This document shows, piece after piece, positions 5,717 through 39,057 of a DNA stretch of 43,701 nt (position 1 is the first letter of the stretch; each line of letters starts with the position of its first letter). Source of the stretch: a virus; IMG/VR virus record IMGVR_UViG_3300002835_000369, positions 1-43,701 of that record; one strand, written 5' to 3'. Position numbers and translations under genes: made by a program. The notes beneath the pieces are model-generated. The model ran no database searches, had not been told where the DNA came from, and saw only the letters and a list, made by a program, of their open reading frames with translations.

Positions 5717-6259
5717 TTAAGAATTTGAAGAAGAAAGACCTAATTGTTTAGAGTATTTTCCAATATTACAAGACCAATATCCTGCGGTTGTTCTGTCTGT
5801 TTTTTGAAGACAATTACTACTTTCTTTAATCACTAATTTAGACTCACCAAAAGTTACTTTTTTAAGACCTCCTGTTTTACTCTTAGTGTAGACCGCAAAT
5901 TTCTTATGTCCTCTTGGAGTTTTCGATTCCGTTAAAGTATCCTCTTCAGTCTCGTTAATATAAGGTGCATCCAAATAGATGTATTGTTTACCAATTTTAA
6001 CTTTCTTACCCAAATCAGATTCAACCATTAATTTGTCTTTGTAATTTAAATCGATTTTACCCTCATTATAAAGGTCTCTAACTTCATTAACTAAATTAAA
6101 ATAACCTTCAGAGTAAACTCTAAAAACATTATTAGTTAATGACATATCGTTTTCAATGTGATATTGTAAAGCATCGGAAACTTCAACATTTTCTTTTAAT
6201 ATTAAAGATTTGTTTAAATGGTTTCCCAACGTTTCTTTTATCAATTGTTTTAAACTCAT
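5717..6259 (-). CDS. Phage protein of unknown function, tag-like N-terminus
   Basis: 180 residues starting MSLKQLIKETLGNHLNKSLILKE; IKE and ILKE fit the (I/L)-x-E pattern of the tagged proteins. The C-terminus is lysine-rich and cysteine-bearing (ESSNCLQKTDRTTAGYWSCN). It lies four bases downstream of the PPK2 gene stop and is probably translated from the same message. Confidence 0.65.
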   Translation of the reverse strand: MSLKQLIKETLGNHLNKSLILKENVEVSDALQYHIENDMSLTNNVFRVYSEGYFNLVNEVRDLYNEGKIDLNYKDKLMVESDLGKKVKIGKQYIYLDAPYINETEEDTLTESKTPRGHKKFAVYTKSKTGGLKKVTFGESKLVIKESSNCLQKTDRTTAGYWSCNIGKYSKQLGLSSSNS

Positions 6260-6263
6260 AATA

Positions 6264-7355
6264 TTATGGCTTTAATATTGCTAATGCCTCAGGGTAATCT
6301 TTATCTAACACTTTTTCGTCTTTACCTTCATACGGTATGTTTTGCAAAACATATCTAATAGCATTTAACCCTGAAACTCTTTTATCTTCGGCATCAACAA
6401 TAACCCACGGGTTATTAACGGATGAAGTTTTATCAAATAATTTTTCTTTAAATTCGGTAAATCTATCCCAAAGGTCTTGCATTTTAGAATCATTAGGTGA
6501 GTATTTCCAATATTTTAAAGGTGATTGTTGTCTAATATCAAATCTTCTTTTTTGAGTGTCTTTATCAATTGAAAACCATAGTTTAAATAAGTAATCTCCT
6601 TCTTTAACTAAATCGTTTTCAAAATCTTCAACATTTTCCATAAAGTCTTCATATTCTTCTACAGACCCGTATCCCATCACTGGTTCAATTAAACCTCTAT
6701 TATACCAACTTCTATCAAATAAGTTAATCATACCTGATTTAATTTGGTTTCTATATCTTCCCCACCAATCTTTTCTATCTTCAGGAGTAGGAACCCCTAA
6801 TGCAATAACATTATAATATCTTGGGTTTAAATTTTCGACAAACTTTTTAATTGTTGACCCTTTACCCGCAGAATCTCTACCTTCAAATACGATTATAACT
6901 GTCTTGTCCGTTTTCTTTAACCATTCTTGGAGTTTTAATAACTCAACCTGCATTTCATAAAGTTCTTTTCTAAAAACTTTCTTTGGTATTATTGACGGCT
7001 CTTCAAATTCGTAATCTTCACTTTCAGGTTCTGTACCGTAACCACTACGTTCTCTGTATTTTAAAGAATTTATAATCTTTCCAAGATAGTCAACTACATT
7101 TTTTTTCTTATCACCTTTTTTCAATAAGATTTTTCTTAACCCTCTTTCTAATAGTCCGAAATCAATAATTTGGTTTTTAGATAAAACAGTAATTTCCATT
7201 AACATTTTTTCAATGGATTTATTGTAAAGTCTCAAGTACTTTAAAATTTCAACTGTTTTACCTAAGTTAATGTTCATTTGAAGATTAGTTTCCTCATCTT
7301 CTTTAATGACACCCATTATACTTTGTATTCTTTCTATTTCGGTTAGGAGCTTCAT
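6264..7355 (-). CDS. ppk2: Polyphosphate kinase 2 family protein with N-terminal tag
   Basis: 363 residues. Residues about 133-350 are a PPK2 domain: Walker A at about 158-168 (EGRDSAGKGST), Walker B and lid region NLFDRSWYNRG at about 211-221, then RFDIRQQSPLKYWKYSPND and the terminal VDAEDKR. PPK2 enzymes transfer phosphate between polyphosphate and nucleoside di- or monophosphates, often regenerating ATP or GTP in the cytoplasm. About 130 residues precede the domain, starting MKLLTEIERIQSIMGVIKEDE, the second form of the shared tag. This extension is much longer than in bacterial single-domain PPK2. It heads an operon with 5717-6259 and 5421-5714. Confidence 0.93.
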   Translation of the reverse strand: MKLLTEIERIQSIMGVIKEDEETNLQMNINLGKTVEILKYLRLYNKSIEKMLMEITVLSKNQIIDFGLLERGLRKILLKKGDKKKNVVDYLGKIINSLKYRERSGYGTEPESEDYEFEEPSIIPKKVFRKELYEMQVELLKLQEWLKKTDKTVIIVFEGRDSAGKGSTIKKFVENLNPRYYNVIALGVPTPEDRKDWWGRYRNQIKSGMINLFDRSWYNRGLIEPVMGYGSVEEYEDFMENVEDFENDLVKEGDYLFKLWFSIDKDTQKRRFDIRQQSPLKYWKYSPNDSKMQDLWDRFTEFKEKLFDKTSSVNNPWVIVDAEDKRVSGLNAIRYVLQNIPYEGKDEKVLDKDYPEALAILKP

Positions 7356-8301: not shown

Positions 8302-8802
8302 ATGAAAAAATTATTATTATTGATGCTCTTACCATTTTTATTGGCATCACACCAACCAACCCAAGAACCTAAGAAGGTTCACATTCAATCTGTTGAGAAC
8401 AAAATTCAAATTGGTTCTCTCGCAAAAAACAGAAACTTAACATTCGGAGTTAAGAACATTCTCTTAGAGAATTTACAAGAGTTAAATTATGAAGTTACGG
8501 ACTCAATTGAGAATTCGGATTACTCATTAAAAGTAGAATTATTATATTTCGATGTACTACAAACAAACTCTGGCGTTTCCGTATTTCACAAAAATAACAA
8601 TGAAACTATTTTAAGAATCAAAGGTTATTTGTACGACAAAAACGGAAAAAAAGTGAAAGATTTCCTCGCGACAGGTAAGTCATCCGAAATTTCACTATCA
8701 ACATTGATTATATCTGAAGGAGGTAATATAAATCAGACCTCCGTTTCTAATGTAATAAAAAAGTCCTGTGAGACATTAATTTTTAATCTATTTAGTAAAT
8801 GA
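8302..8802 (+). CDS. Exported YajG-like protein
   Basis: 166 residues. A hydrophobic leader (MKKLLLLMLLPFLLASHQ) is followed by a compact domain. SDYSLKVELLYFDV, then a basic beta strand, then a conserved-looking helical end (VSNVIKKSCETLIFNLF) resemble YajG/Lipoprotein_16-type lipoproteins and, more distantly, the CsgG fold. There is no lipobox cysteine, so it is probably soluble or anchored otherwise. It is the first gene of a tight forward operon; its stop overlaps the next start (ATGA). Confidence 0.6.
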   Translation: MKKLLLLMLLPFLLASHQPTQEPKKVHIQSVENKIQIGSLAKNRNLTFGVKNILLENLQELNYEVTDSIENSDYSLKVELLYFDVLQTNSGVSVFHKNNNETILRIKGYLYDKNGKKVKDFLATGKSSEISLSTLIISEGGNINQTSVSNVIKKSCETLIFNLFSK

Positions 8803-10694
8803 AAAAACTAATTTCGGTGGTATCCCTACTTTTAATGAGCATTGTAGGATACTCACAAACACCCGAAATCGGTCATTTTCAACAGTTATCAACGATTAAG
8901 AGAGGAGACACTTTAGATGTCGCATGGTACTTCAAACCCGCAGTGGGGACGGATGTCAGGACCTTTCAAATCGATTGGCAATACAAAAAGGCGTTGTTAA
9001 CACATATATCGTCTTCTGTTGATGCGGCCGTGGCGGGTAATGCACCTGTATTAGATTTCAAGTCGTGGGAGAACTACAAATACGGTTCTTACTCGAATGG
9101 AGTCTACAACTATGTGTCTGATTCTGACTGGTCGATTGGTAGAAACTATCTTATTCTAAGTAATGGTAGTCAAATCAGTTCGAATGGTTATATCATTCGC
9201 AATAAGTTTAAAGTAAACGATGTTCCTTCTAATTTTGATGAGGATTCGGTACGAGTTAACTGGGCGAGAATGTTTAAACTCGATGGTACATCTATCGGAG
9301 ACAATATCGCATCGTTATCTCATCAAGTATTGGACCTTAAGTTATTAGGTAACTTAACAATTTCTGGAAAGATATGGTTCCCTTCAACCATAACGACTCA
9401 GACATTACCGACATTGTATTGTTACGATAACGTAACCAATGTTTTGGTGTCTCAAACCATTCCTGATTTAAATGGTAATTACACCTTTAATAACGTTGAC
9501 GAAAACAAAACCTATAAAATTGAGGTTAGGTTCCCGTCGGCACAGTTGTCGTCAATAAGAGACAATGCTGTTACAATATCTGACGCGGTGAAGGCATATA
9601 ACGAATACATCAATACTGATGTAAATCAAAATATGACACGTCAATATCTTAGACATGGTTTGTCTTATTTAATTGGTGACATAAATTTGAGTCAATCTTT
9701 TGATGGTGGTGACCCTTACTCAATTTACGCATCTGTATCAGGGTTAGCACCGATAAACACAAGTAATCTTATCAATGTGTTTACAAAAGAAACCTACGAC
9801 TCTTTAGTTTTAGGTACGGACCAATGGACAACATGGCAAAACCATTCGAACAAAGGAATATTCCTAACAACTACTGTGGGTACCACAAACTTATCTTTAG
9901 ACATCAAATACTTTGTTTTAGGTGATGTTGACAGAAGTCACTCTTCACCTGTATTTAACGGAACAACCGAAGTTTTAGCGGCGGTTTATAAAGGTCAGTT
10001 TGATGTAAACATCGCTAACTCATACGCAGTTGGAAGTCCAATGTATGTCCCATTCAATGTTTCAACAAATGGGTCGTTATCTAATGGATTACAATTTGAA
10101 ATGAAGTATGATGTAACCAAAGTTAAATTTGATGAAATAGTTTCAAACATACAAGGTCCATGGTTACAATATGTAACACATGATGACGTAAACGGAATCG
10201 TAAGATTCGGAGGAATGAATAACCAACAAAATGGGTCGCTACAAGGTGTAGCGACTCCATTTGTTTTAAAATTTTTAGCCAAAAATCCTAGTGAGGATAT
10301 TAATTCAAGTGTTTCAATCAGAAGTTTAATGGATGCATCTCATAAAGATGGAGACCACTTCAACATTAACCTTTCAACAGGTATGATTGTATTATCATAC
10401 AGAGCCAACAATCCTAATATAATAACCGCAACAGAACCAACGGTAACATTATATCCAAACCCTACTAACGGTATTGTTAATATTTCTATAGATTTATTAC
10501 CTAAAACTAAAATGAACGCATCTATTTATAATAATATTGGTAGATTGGTAATGAATGTTGGGGATTTCACATCTGACGAGTTTAATTTAAACCATAAAGA
10601 AACCGTAGACGTGGGAAACCTGATGAGTGGAGTTTATTACATTATTCTATCAGGATACAATAAAAAAATAACTAAACCCTTTATTAAAAATTAA
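8799..10694 (+). CDS. T9SS-sorted adhesin-like protein with dockerin- and cohesin-like segments
   Basis: 631 residues. A signal peptide (MKKLISVVSLLLMSIVGYSQ) precedes several beta-sandwich regions. Residues around 260-300 and 370-385 (NAVTISDAVKAYNEYI, LGDVDRSHSS) look like dockerin-type calcium loops. About 395-540 resembles a cohesin-type sandwich (YVPFNVST, GLQFEMKYDVTKVKFDEI, VRFGGMNN). The last 85 residues match a type IX secretion sorting domain: TVTLYPNPTNGIVNISI, then GVYYIIL and a basic end. Such proteins cross the outer membrane and are attached to the cell surface in Bacteroidota. No enzyme motif; adhesin or surface decoration is the likeliest role. It shares its central architecture with the gene at 13179. 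Confidence 0.8.
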   Translation: MKKLISVVSLLLMSIVGYSQTPEIGHFQQLSTIKRGDTLDVAWYFKPAVGTDVRTFQIDWQYKKALLTHISSSVDAAVAGNAPVLDFKSWENYKYGSYSNGVYNYVSDSDWSIGRNYLILSNGSQISSNGYIIRNKFKVNDVPSNFDEDSVRVNWARMFKLDGTSIGDNIASLSHQVLDLKLLGNLTISGKIWFPSTITTQTLPTLYCYDNVTNVLVSQTIPDLNGNYTFNNVDENKTYKIEVRFPSAQLSSIRDNAVTISDAVKAYNEYINTDVNQNMTRQYLRHGLSYLIGDINLSQSFDGGDPYSIYASVSGLAPINTSNLINVFTKETYDSLVLGTDQWTTWQNHSNKGIFLTTTVGTTNLSLDIKYFVLGDVDRSHSSPVFNGTTEVLAAVYKGQFDVNIANSYAVGSPMYVPFNVSTNGSLSNGLQFEMKYDVTKVKFDEIVSNIQGPWLQYVTHDDVNGIVRFGGMNNQQNGSLQGVATPFVLKFLAKNPSEDINSSVSIRSLMDASHKDGDHFNINLSTGMIVLSYRANNPNIITATEPTVTLYPNPTNGIVNISIDLLPKTKMNASIYNNIGRLVMNVGDFTSDEFNLNHKETVDVGNLMSGVYYIILSGYNKKITKPFIKN

Positions 10695-20771: not shown

Positions 20772-21128
20772 TTAATGCCATTGGCCCTTTTCATCCCATT
20801 TGTTCAAACAGTCATATCCTTGTTCCTCAAAATTACTTTCAGTACCTATCAAATTCACATTTTTTAATTGATTTAAAGAACACATATCAATATCCTCAAA
20901 ATCGGCAAAGTCACAATTAATGATTGCTAAATATTCTAAATTAGGTGGTAAGTTTTTTAATACTCTTCTAACCATTTTTGGAGTTTGTTCGATTAAAGCA
21001 ACCATTCCCTTTTTTCTATCAAATATATAATGTGGTTCATCTAATGAAAATCTAGTTTGCTCGTTAACCACCTTTTTAACTAATCTTATCATGTCAGATT
21101 CTGTTAATCTTACTATTTTCTTCGCCAT
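20772..21128 (-). CDS. Tagged LRR-like small protein
   Basis: 118 residues. The tag is complete: KIVRLTESDMIRLVKKVVNEQ. The rest includes NLPPNLEYLAIINCDF and DMCSLNQLKNVNLIGT, two leucine-rich repeat-like turns. No enzyme motif. It could be a small protein-binding cargo. Confidence 0.7.
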   Translation of the reverse strand: MAKKIVRLTESDMIRLVKKVVNEQTRFSLDEPHYIFDRKKGMVALIEQTPKMVRRVLKNLPPNLEYLAIINCDFADFEDIDMCSLNQLKNVNLIGTESNFEEQGYDCLNKWDEKGQWH

Positions 21129-24833: not shown

Positions 24834-25325
24834 TTACTTTTTTTTGTTTTTAATTGCGTTAGATATCAACCCATAAATATAATCAACACATTTTACTTTT
24901 AGATTTGGTCTATCTGCCATTGCAGGTGTAGACCCAACACAAGCAGAATTTTTAAACATAACTTGTTCAGGAATTCCTTCTACTTCAACAAAATCAGGAT
25001 AATAGTCACCTGAAAAATCTGGCATATCAAATGGATATCTAACTTCAATTCCTGATTTATGTGACAACGTACATCTGTAATAATCAACATTAGGATATCC
25101 TCCTAAATTGAATCTATCTGCCTTTTTTTCAATATGTTCTTCTTTTTTTGTGAACCCTAAAGATAATAATTTTGGCTCAAGTTTTTTCCAATATGGATTT
25201 GTTCTACAATCAGTTTTTTTTGGGTCGGTTTCATTACGAATTATATTAAAAACAGATTGTTCTTTTATTACCCTTTTAACCAATCTTGTTAAATCAGATT
25301 CGGTTAATCTTATAATTTTTTTCAT
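24834..25325 (-). CDS. Tagged Cys-containing protein
   Basis: 163 residues with the clearest tag of the window, KKIIRLTESDLTRLVKRVIKEQ split as KKIIRLTESDL and TRLVKRVIKEQ. The body has four or five Cys (DCRTN, YRCTL, SACVG, VKCVD), Pro/Tyr-rich loops and a helical basic end. Unrecognised; cysteines could form disulphides outside the cytoplasm or bind metal. Confidence 0.7.
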   Translation of the reverse strand: MKKIIRLTESDLTRLVKRVIKEQSVFNIIRNETDPKKTDCRTNPYWKKLEPKLLSLGFTKKEEHIEKKADRFNLGGYPNVDYYRCTLSHKSGIEVRYPFDMPDFSGDYYPDFVEVEGIPEQVMFKNSACVGSTPAMADRPNLKVKCVDYIYGLISNAIKNKKK

Positions 25326-25971: not shown

Positions 25972-27060
25972 TTACAAATTCACTAATTTTTGTATTACCT
26001 TATTAATTAAAGGAGTTTTGTATTTCACACTTAAAGGTATTGTCTTTTTTTTGGTTGAAGATGTCCAAATTCCAAAGAATTTTGCAAAATCTGCCATATC
26101 GTCTGTCAAGTCAATACAACCATGAGAACCTCTTAATGAACCACCGTGTACATAAAATGCACTTCTTCCGTACATTTTTTGACCTCCTGTTGGTTTAATA
26201 TATGCTCTATAATTTCCCCAACTTATTCTACTTAATAATGTATTTTCTCTGAATGACTTACTTTGGTCATTACCTACTTTACCTGTAATTTTGTCCCAAA
26301 AAGCTTCTAAAGCTCCAATTTCTTCTTGACCTCCTGAACGTGTCTCTAATGGACCCACAACATAAGTACCTTCTGGAAGAGGACCAGCGTCTTTGTCTTG
26401 TGACCATTCCTGTGGAGTTGTGGTATATCTCTTTAACATTTGACCCCAATCACTAGGTGGTGTGTTTTTCCATGTCAATCCACTTACCGCACTCCACGAT
26501 TTAATAATTTTACCATTTGTTACCCAATTTAGTTTGTCCCCATCAAAAAATAACGCAGCGTTAGGGTTCAAAACTAAATCTGTACCAGTTTGATTTTTTG
26601 CAATGTTTTTTGCCGTATTCGAAAGTGAAGCACCCGCTTTAGGAGCGGTTTTAGCCGTAGATTTAGCCGCGGCTTTTACTGCTGTTGTATCCGCTTTAGC
26701 CGCAGTTGTTTTTGTCGTGTCTGATTTACCAATACTATTTAAAAACTGGCTTTGAGCAAATCCTGCAAACAAATAATTTCTAGTTAATTGGTCAACACTT
26801 CCCGTAGGTTTTATTTTTGATTTAGTTTGAAAATCTTTAATAGCCCTTTGGGTTGCAGGTCCAAAATCACCATCCACACCGTCGTTATTCGGTCCAGTAG
26901 TACCTAAATTATACCCCTTTAATTTTAAAGCTTGTTGTATTTTTTTTACATCATCATTTTTTTGTCCTCTTTCTGCGAATGGTACCGCCATTTGTTCAAT
27001 TAGAACTTTATTAACAATCTGTTCTAAATCTGATTCAGTTAATTTTATAATTTTCGCCAT
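25972..27060 (-). CDS. Tagged peptidoglycan-binding and L,D-transpeptidase/Tlde1-like enzyme
   Basis: 362 residues. Tag: KIIKLTESDLEQIVNKVLIEQ in its first 23 residues, with E22-Q23 as a possible cleavage point. Residues about 35-97 are a PG_binding_1 repeat (GVDGDFGPATQRAIKDFQ). An Ala/Lys/Thr linker (105-150) leads to a catalytic domain at about 165-350 containing FYVHGGSLRGSHGCIDL; H305 and C315 fit the YkuD or DUF2778/Tlde1 catalytic pair. It has no signal peptide, unlike its neighbour at 25389. If carried in the virion it could cut the wall at entry. Four bases upstream of it ends a spanin-like gene. Confidence 0.85.
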   Translation of the reverse strand: MAKIIKLTESDLEQIVNKVLIEQMAVPFAERGQKNDDVKKIQQALKLKGYNLGTTGPNNDGVDGDFGPATQRAIKDFQTKSKIKPTGSVDQLTRNYLFAGFAQSQFLNSIGKSDTTKTTAAKADTTAVKAAAKSTAKTAPKAGASLSNTAKNIAKNQTGTDLVLNPNAALFFDGDKLNWVTNGKIIKSWSAVSGLTWKNTPPSDWGQMLKRYTTTPQEWSQDKDAGPLPEGTYVVGPLETRSGGQEEIGALEAFWDKITGKVGNDQSKSFRENTLLSRISWGNYRAYIKPTGGQKMYGRSAFYVHGGSLRGSHGCIDLTDDMADFAKFFGIWTSSTKKKTIPLSVKYKTPLINKVIQKLVNL

Positions 27061-34497: not shown

Positions 34498-35472
34498 TTA
34501 CATGTCAAAGTCTTCATCTTCATCGTCCTCATAATCTTCACCACCTTCTAAATCTCTATAAACTTCAAAAAGTTCCTCACCAAATTCTTCTTTAGCGTAA
34601 TCAAGAAGGTCATCATGTCTATCTTCCAACCACTCATTTCCAGGTTGTGAAATAAACTTATCTATTGACCAAGATAATATGTTATCCGCAAATTCAAATT
34701 CGTCACCAAAATTATCGGGATTACTTTCTTGTGCCACCTCGTCCTGTATTATTGATAACAGTGCACCATGTCTTCTTTTCATACGAGACCTTATATCGTC
34801 ATCATCTGATTCGACAATTCTTTTAATAATACTAACTAATTCTGATTCTGTAACTTTAATTTTCATTTTATTGAATTTTGTTTTTGGTCCTAATGGTGGG
34901 TCCAATAGGAATTTTTCATTCAACCATCTTCTTAATTCGTTCTCAACAAAAAACTCAGGAACCTCTTTATCATCAGGTTGTAGAGACGCAATATTGGCAA
35001 TGTATTGTGCAAACTTTAATTTATACTTTTCATCTAACATAGTCATAAGACCATCTGAAATAAAAAATATTCGAGACAAAGGGTCTTCAAGGTTTAAATC
35101 ACCTTCCACTAAGTCAAACGCTTTCATAACCGCTTTACCCCACCATGTTCTATATTTTGTTGTCTCAGTTAAGGTTGGTCGAAAAATCTTATTCAAAGCT
35201 CTTGTTGCCGAACCAAGAAATCCTGCGATAGTTAGTTGAGGTAGGAACCAAGGTAAAATTCTTAATGTTGCCTTAAACCCTCCCTCACCTACGTGTTTAA
35301 AAATTCTTTTTCTTGTCGCACTTTCAACAATAGCCCTTAATTGACCGAAAGTTATCTTTCCTTGAGCAGAACAAAACTTCTCACTATTACAAATGTTTTG
35401 CATTGCAAGGTCTGAGGGTTCAACTTGTCTTTTAAGTTTTTCAAACTGAGATGGTGTAACAATATATTTCAT
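34498..35472 (-). CDS. Double-tagged fusion protein
   Basis: 324 residues. Residues 1-200 form a first unit (tag MKYIVTPSQFEKLKRQVEPS; then AIVESATRKR, RILPWFLPQLTIAGFLGSA, DPLSRIFFISDGLMTMLDE and LNEKFLLDPPLGPKT). Residues 203-324 form a second unit that starts with a complete tag, MKIKVTESELVSIIKRIVES, and continues into an acidic tail (EGGEDYEDDEDEDFDM). An ATG exists at 34866 for the second unit, so it may also be translated alone. The first unit resembles a family I associate with unannotated phage proteins. It looks like a fusion of two tagged genes. Confidence 0.75.
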   Translation of the reverse strand: MKYIVTPSQFEKLKRQVEPSDLAMQNICNSEKFCSAQGKITFGQLRAIVESATRKRIFKHVGEGGFKATLRILPWFLPQLTIAGFLGSATRALNKIFRPTLTETTKYRTWWGKAVMKAFDLVEGDLNLEDPLSRIFFISDGLMTMLDEKYKLKFAQYIANIASLQPDDKEVPEFFVENELRRWLNEKFLLDPPLGPKTKFNKMKIKVTESELVSIIKRIVESDDDDIRSRMKRRHGALLSIIQDEVAQESNPDNFGDEFEFADNILSWSIDKFISQPGNEWLEDRHDDLLDYAKEEFGEELFEVYRDLEGGEDYEDDEDEDFDM

Positions 35473-38628: not shown

Positions 38629-39057
38629 TTACTTCATATTACGTTGAATATCCTTCTCTATATCCCTTTTTTTGATGGTTTCTCTCTTATCATACACCTT
38701 TTTACCACGTGCAACGACGATTTCGACCTTAAAACGACCCTTTTCGTTCTCATATAGTCGTGATGGTATGATTGTAAGACCCTTGTCTAAACTCCTCTCT
38801 ATCTTCCTTAATTCCCTCTTTTTGAGTAATATTTTACGGTCTCTCTTCATATTATCGTTCCCAATACCTGAAATAGACACGTTTTTCATGAATAACTCCC
38901 CATTTTGGAATACACAGAAGGAATCTGCGAAGGATAACTGACCTTTTCGGATGAATTTAACCTCAACTCCATTCAATACAACACCTGCAGTATAGGTGTC
39001 AATGAATTCATATTCGAATCTAGCTCTCTTGTTTAGTATGTTGACCTTCTTTTCCAT
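38629..39057 (-). CDS. smpB: SmpB, SsrA-binding protein
   Basis: 142 residues, close to the usual 150. NILNKRARFEYEFIDTYTAG, VLNGVEVKFIRKGQLSFADS and CVFQNGELFMKNVSISG match the SmpB core, and the C-terminal tail ARGKKVYDKRETIKKRDIEK is present. SmpB binds the tRNA-like domain of tmRNA and brings it to stalled ribosomes; the tail reaches into the mRNA channel. All key parts seem intact. No tmRNA of the classical form is visible in the window; the tRNA-like RNA at 4010-4179 is a possible but unproven partner. A host-type -7 box is four bases from the ATG. Confidence 0.93.
   Translation of the reverse strand: MEKKVNILNKRARFEYEFIDTYTAGVVLNGVEVKFIRKGQLSFADSFCVFQNGELFMKNVSISGIGNDNMKRDRKILLKKRELRKIERSLDKGLTIIPSRLYENEKGRFKVEIVVARGKKVYDKRETIKKRDIEKDIQRNMK

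Follow-up and report, generated by a model that had tools for sequence, protein, structure and literature searches.

Does the polyphosphate kinase encoded by a giant phage travel in the virion, and what would it do on arrival? The question is raised by one gene in a 43,701-nucleotide virus sequence (IMG/VR record IMGVR_UViG_3300002835_000369; hereafter the window). The gene (6264..7355, minus strand) has an ATG start and encodes a 363-residue PPK2 protein with an N-terminal extension. A preliminary description of the window had proposed that this enzyme, if packaged and injected, could make nucleotides from host polyphosphate at the onset of infection. Taken as a whole, the explanation that PPK2 is a virion cargo, ejected with the DNA and yielding early NTPs from host polyphosphate, has in our judgement a marginally better than even chance of being correct.

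The catalytic portion of the protein is that of an intact PPK2. Residues 125-347 match PF03976 (E 5.9e-68; 229 bits against a cut-off of 22.3; profile positions 4-228 of 229), and the core delimited with this profile and with PDB relatives spans residues 122-363 (6267..6992, minus strand). As the preliminary description had stated, Walker A (GRDSAGKG, residues 159-166; 6858..6881, minus strand), DRSWYNR (residues 214-220; 6696..6716, minus strand) and the lid are all in place, and an alignment of 38 relatives shows them to be invariant or almost so. In the alignment, D214 corresponds to D117 of the Francisella tularensis enzyme (FtPPK2), the residue mutated in PDB entry 5llf according to its title. 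The core has a pN/pS of 0.10 across the window PPK2 and its homologues. With class labels drawn in part from PDB titles and in part from general knowledge, phmmer scores for the window PPK2 reach 228 and 200 bits against the class I enzymes of F. tularensis and Sinorhizobium meliloti, at most 144 against class II single domains and at most 88-91 against class III, and the two-domain Pseudomonas aeruginosa PPK2 totals 230 bits over both domains and 129 for the better one. A Foldseek search with the predicted model also ranks the Francisella enzyme first, and these comparisons point to a class I-like core. Since the protein misses the cut-off of the TIGR03707 equivalog PPK2_P_aer (264.6 against 301.8 bits), we keep its name at PPK2-family enzyme, class I-like. 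PHROGs holds no family matching the window PPK2, and a pattern scan for cellular PPK2 found three.

The extension ahead of this core had been put at 130 residues; it is indeed present, measures about 121 residues and has an internal structure, with four parts distinguished by conservation in 50 homologues and by the AlphaFold2 model. All lie on the minus strand: an N-terminal tag (residues 1-19; 7299..7355), a variable linker with the highest pN/pS of any segment, 0.64 (residues 20-27; 7275..7298), a conserved four-helix domain with a pN/pS of 0.22 (residues 28-102; 7050..7274) and a conserved acidic linker, RSGYGTEPESEDYEFEEPS, with a pN/pS of 0.11 (residues 103-121; 6993..7049). The model of the whole protein has a pLDDT of only 67, with much of the helical domain at 87-92 per block and residues 15-24 below 50; modelled alone, residues 28-111 form four helices with a pLDDT of 87.7. 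The preliminary description had named an ordinary PPK2 N-terminal domain as the finding that would tell against its proposal. That identity was ruled out, as the cellular matches listed all begin at residue 112 or later, as do the PDB matches, and as none of the 395 plasmid records matching PPK2 covers 80% of the query, the 20 listed beginning at residue 122 or later. A known fold was ruled out as well, the four-helix domain matching no PDB or BFVD structure at E<=0.001.

The tag, MKLLTEIERIQSIMGVIKE, ends in an (I/L)xE site of prohead-protease type, which in the window PPK2 is IKE at residues 17-19. Several of its residues are highly conserved among 50 homologues (E6 90%, R9 94%, I10 98%, V13 90%, M14 100%, G15 94%, E19 82%). 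About 80 viral loci in IMG/VR, some of them on contigs of 317-321 kb, carry a homologous PPK2 with 74-100% identity and retain the tag, and nearly all align from residue 1, 3 or 6 through to the end; aligning the extension with the PPK2 of related phages, a check that had been proposed at the outset, recovers both the tag and the conserved helical domain. An [LIVM]xE site lies one or two residues past M-G or its equivalent in 43 of 45 distinct N-termini, the other two having none, and it persists where one upstream residue is deleted (GVIKE versus GINE and GLSE). Tag residues 2-14 show a pN/pS of 0.39, indicating purifying selection. Retained in some 80 loci, and with an HMM of its form matching 8 N-termini and a single weak internal segment of 1684, the tag on the window PPK2 exceeds what chance would give.

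PPK2 is one of many proteins that begin in this way. Two tag forms, LTESDLxRLVKRVIKEQ and LxEIxRIKxVMGxxxE, occur at many N-termini, and an HMM of the first matches 54 N-termini and 10 of 1684 internal segments, that of the second 8 N-termini and 1 internal segment. The second form is the one carried by PPK2, and its single internal match is weak; some few internal matches resemble misplaced starts. At E<0.01, about 42 of the 386 ORFs of the best relative (G001, 321 kb) are tagged, as are 14 of the window's 69. The motif [LIV]xE with one of a set of small or polar residues after it is found at positions 11-30 of 38 of 56 tagged and 68 of 399 untagged N-termini, a comparison that is descriptive because the first tag form itself holds an E-rich end. 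Tagged proteins of the window, all on the minus strand, include one with peptidoglycan-binding and L,D-transpeptidase-like matches (25972..27060; tag E 2.5e-8; PF01471, PF03734) and two recognized with the tag HMM, MAKKIVRLTESDMIRLVKKVVNEQ (20772..21128) and MKKIIRLTESDLTRLVKRVIKEQ (24834..25325). The tagged proteins include a glucosaminidase, an L,D-transpeptidase and a C39 peptidase, together with a weak phosphatase match, and the tagged peptidoglycan enzymes fit with delivery at entry. The peptidoglycan-binding proteins at window position 25972 and G001 position 185796 have a body in common and unlike tags. With its tag kept in some 80 loci, a protease-type site at the tag end and the same tag on unrelated proteins, the first description of the window PPK2 as starting with a cargo-type tag gains strong comparative support. 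Some 42 tagged ORFs in one genome nevertheless far exceed the few internal proteins of T4, which makes another purpose for the tag possible. Between 19720 and 43384 of the window, at least 14 ORFs begin with a tag form, mostly (R)LTESDLxRLVKRVIKEQ or MKYIITExQ, and make up a putative cargo cluster. The ORF at 34498-35472 has a tag-like start and a second one inside, MKIKVTESELVSIIKRIVES, perhaps because two cargo genes have fused or because translation can also begin internally.

Because the window is a 43.7-kb fragment, within which no gp21-like protease was found, head genes were examined in its relatives. G001 encodes a T4-type capsid protein (phrog_138), a gp21-like protease (phrog_207), a portal and a terminase, and an S77 gp21-like protease is present in seven PPK2-bearing contigs (G001-G007; E 1.5e-22 to 3.7e-24). 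By likeness to T4 gp23, the G001 capsid propeptide appears to end at ASHLINE|ASST, and a nearby protein of the head module contains LSESQIDILVDRFVISEQ. The cultivated Flavobacterium phage immuto resembles G001 in head-gene order and in its capsid N-terminus. Its virion proteomics was considered as a proxy and dropped, as just two N-termini of this phage, MKKQILSEQFKRMQFLAGIITES and its sister, are similar, and the literature searched held no paper on its virion proteome. Fourteen of the 15 contigs with the capsid gene are without PPK2, and as these 14 are fragments the prevalence is uninformative. The phage of the window is probably a T4-type giant phage of Bacteroidota, a host to which the T9SS type A sorting domain (TIGR04183) of the protein at 8799-10694 points. 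The window also encodes an SmpB homologue (38629-39057; PF01668, E 2.4e-44); a tmRNA search of the window found none.

Directly downstream of PPK2, a gene at 5717..6259 (minus strand) encodes an operon partner with a tag-like start, MSLKQLIKETL...SLILKEN. A homologue lies on the same strand, directly or almost directly 3' of PPK2, in 74 of 80 loci; its product is a candidate functional partner of the kinase. Relatives occur in phages of Flavobacterium (immuto), Pelagibacter and Methylophilales, and the C-terminal SFRARH...YWSC region is also found in T4-like marine phages and others. The SFRARH segment, present in 56 of the 58 partner homologues counted, is absent from the window and from two near relatives (L004 and L005).

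A second lineage carries a tagged PPK2 of its own. The closest PPK2s of GenBank phages come from uncultured phages of 634-735 kb (LR756502, LR745206 and LR756501), with core identities of 49-54%; the terminases of LR756502 and G001 share only 22% identity. These PPK2s start with MINNFIKFINEE, MPVYNFHKFINEE and MISNYDNFMNES, and the tags NFIKFINE (LR756502) and NYDNFMNE (LR756501) match the start of T4 IPII and IPIII, MKTYQEFIAE|A, in the T4 record, where the IPI site is ITE with last residue 19. The T4 pattern [FY]xxF[ILMV]xE, a trait of that lineage more than a defining feature of capsid-targeted internal proteins, occurs at 25 of 380 N-termini against 6 of 2340 internal windows in the first 300 kb of LR756501, at 12 of 433 against 5 of 2262 in LR756502 and at 1 of 386 N-termini in G001, and was not found in the window PPK2. 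PPK2 bears different tags in the two lineages, a case of one enzyme with lineage-specific tags; as the PPK2s of LR756502 and LR745206 are alike, the three genomes count as no more than one or two independent instances. The helical domain ahead of PPK2 is probably homologous between the lineages, to judge from a profile comparison of the extension domain that gave E 5.5e-7 with the linker and, when the linker was left off, 1.1e-4, where the best of 75 controls reached 5e-3. Searched against all 735 kb of LR756501, the domain profile gave a single match, inside the PPK2 N-terminus (E 0.0076), and it matched nothing in LR756502 and LR745206. The FDWDDN protein, a family common to both lineages, also starts with short stretches that run to (I/L)xE. 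For the protease, the 634-735 kb phages give matches under the Pfam cut-off, and an IMG/VR search for further relatives of the PPK2 of the 735-kb phage returned none. A DHH-like protein of G001 (255156-257312; L104:15156-17312), with a C-terminal TseH-like match (PF25218) and the short start MKNLITE|T, has an HxDLDG motif similar to one in a protein of LR756502 (642 kb; position 91808) that starts with a T4-like tag.

Taken together, these comparisons support well the cargo reading of the tagged PPK2, and its packaging in the virion seems likely. PPK2 might instead be an unpackaged auxiliary metabolic enzyme made in infection, its tag targeting it elsewhere, to an assembly site or the membrane, or surviving as a neutral relic. 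Such a role would accord with the very large number of tagged proteins and with the report, in PMC13188868 (citing Li et al. 2025), of ppk1 and ppk2 on viruses as auxiliary metabolic genes. We find it unlikely, because the site at the tag end agrees with the motif at which the capsid protein of this phage family appears to be cleaved, because the PPK2 of distant phages bears a T4-like tag and because the tag is under purifying selection.

For the packaged enzyme, we infer a course of packaging, cleavage, ejection, reaction direction and benefit as follows. Residues 1-19 would act in the manner of the sequence that targets the internal proteins of T4 to the capsid, docking PPK2 on the prohead core, and the gp21-like protease of the phage would cut the tag after (I/L)xE, that is, after residue 19. 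The mature enzyme, consisting of the four-helix domain and the PPK2 core, would be retained in the head and ejected into the new host together with the DNA; delivery at the onset of infection is thus probable on the sequence evidence. There, in a class I-like reaction, it would phosphorylate nucleoside diphosphates from polyphosphate, giving an early NTP pulse that precedes phage gene expression. A search for PPK1 in six phage records that carry PPK2 found none, so the polyphosphate would be host-derived. With class I PPK2s as the nearest solved relatives, formation of nucleotides from host polyphosphate at entry is plausible, and if PPK2 is packaged we rate NTP supply as a fairly likely role.

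PPK2 reactions run both ways, and polyphosphate is a stress and regulatory polymer in bacteria. Next in probability, and still unlikely, is that a packaged and injected PPK2 drains or makes host polyphosphate, altering host stress responses or defence early. The evidence for packaging is identical in this case, and the lack of PPK1 in the six records would equally imply dependence on host polyphosphate or host PPK1; the nearest solved relatives, however, are of class I, known for forming NTPs from polyphosphate. That PPK2 works in the infected cell or prohead at assembly, for instance regenerating ATP for the packaging motor, is very improbable, for although DNA packaging uses ATP and the [LIVM]xE tag, on the T4 precedent, would bring and concentrate PPK2 at the prohead core, the tagged peptidoglycan enzymes suit entry better.

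If PPK2 is indeed an ejected cargo making early NTPs, phages ship a ready-made energy enzyme with their DNA, beyond anti-defence proteins, and tap the host polyphosphate store ahead of any phage gene expression; the tag with its (I/L)xE site would offer a sequence rule for predicting virion cargo in uncultivated giant phages. More tentatively, and with somewhat less than an even chance, several giant T4-type phage lineages may share an interchangeable cargo set, dozens per genome and bearing lineage-specific tags, in which PPK2 is an energy module kept through tag exchange and infection starts with polyphosphate-powered nucleotide synthesis. The literature searched, which took in few subscription journals or preprints, yielded no paper joining polyphosphate kinase to jumbo or huge phages, none combining polyphosphate, phage infection and ATP regeneration, and no report of PPK2 packaged in virions; the novelty of packaging is provisional to that extent. 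The preliminary description had considered the strategy undescribed, which on this search applies to packaging and not to virus-encoded PPK2 as such, already reported (PMC13188868), so that only delivery with the DNA would be new.

Known systems share parts of this arrangement. The class I PPK2s of F. tularensis (5ll0, 5llb) and S. meliloti (6dzg) are alike in core fold and motifs (46% and 38% identity; Foldseek) but are without tag and four-helix domain. Virus-encoded PPK has been read as made in infection and raising polyphosphate storage, with no packaging tag mentioned in the available portion of that paper (PMC13188868). DarB of phage P1 is a large protein that, as proposed here for PPK2, travels in the head by virtue of an N-terminal signal, although its cargo role is anti-restriction and its tag is different (PMC9024508). 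The giant phage SPN3US has many internal head proteins with propeptides cut by the prohead protease, several of them longer than 100 residues, and PPK2 goes unmentioned in the text available for it (PMC5694885). In T4, a targeting sequence on internal proteins and the role of the gp21 protease have been described (PMC3012670, PMC5694885), and IPI-IPIII and Alt resemble the window PPK2 in combining a short N-terminal tag that runs to (L/I)xE with a gp21-type protease and a T4-type head (PMC3012670, PMC5694885). The T4 site has L or I where that of the window PPK2 family frequently has V or M, and unlike the T4 internal proteins the cargo here is a metabolic kinase extended by a helical domain, its tag sequence (LxEIxRIKxVMG) is the window lineage's own and dozens of proteins per genome are tagged. 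We do not file PPK2 as a member of the T4-type capsid-targeted internal proteins, and propose that its tag works like T4 capsid targeting.
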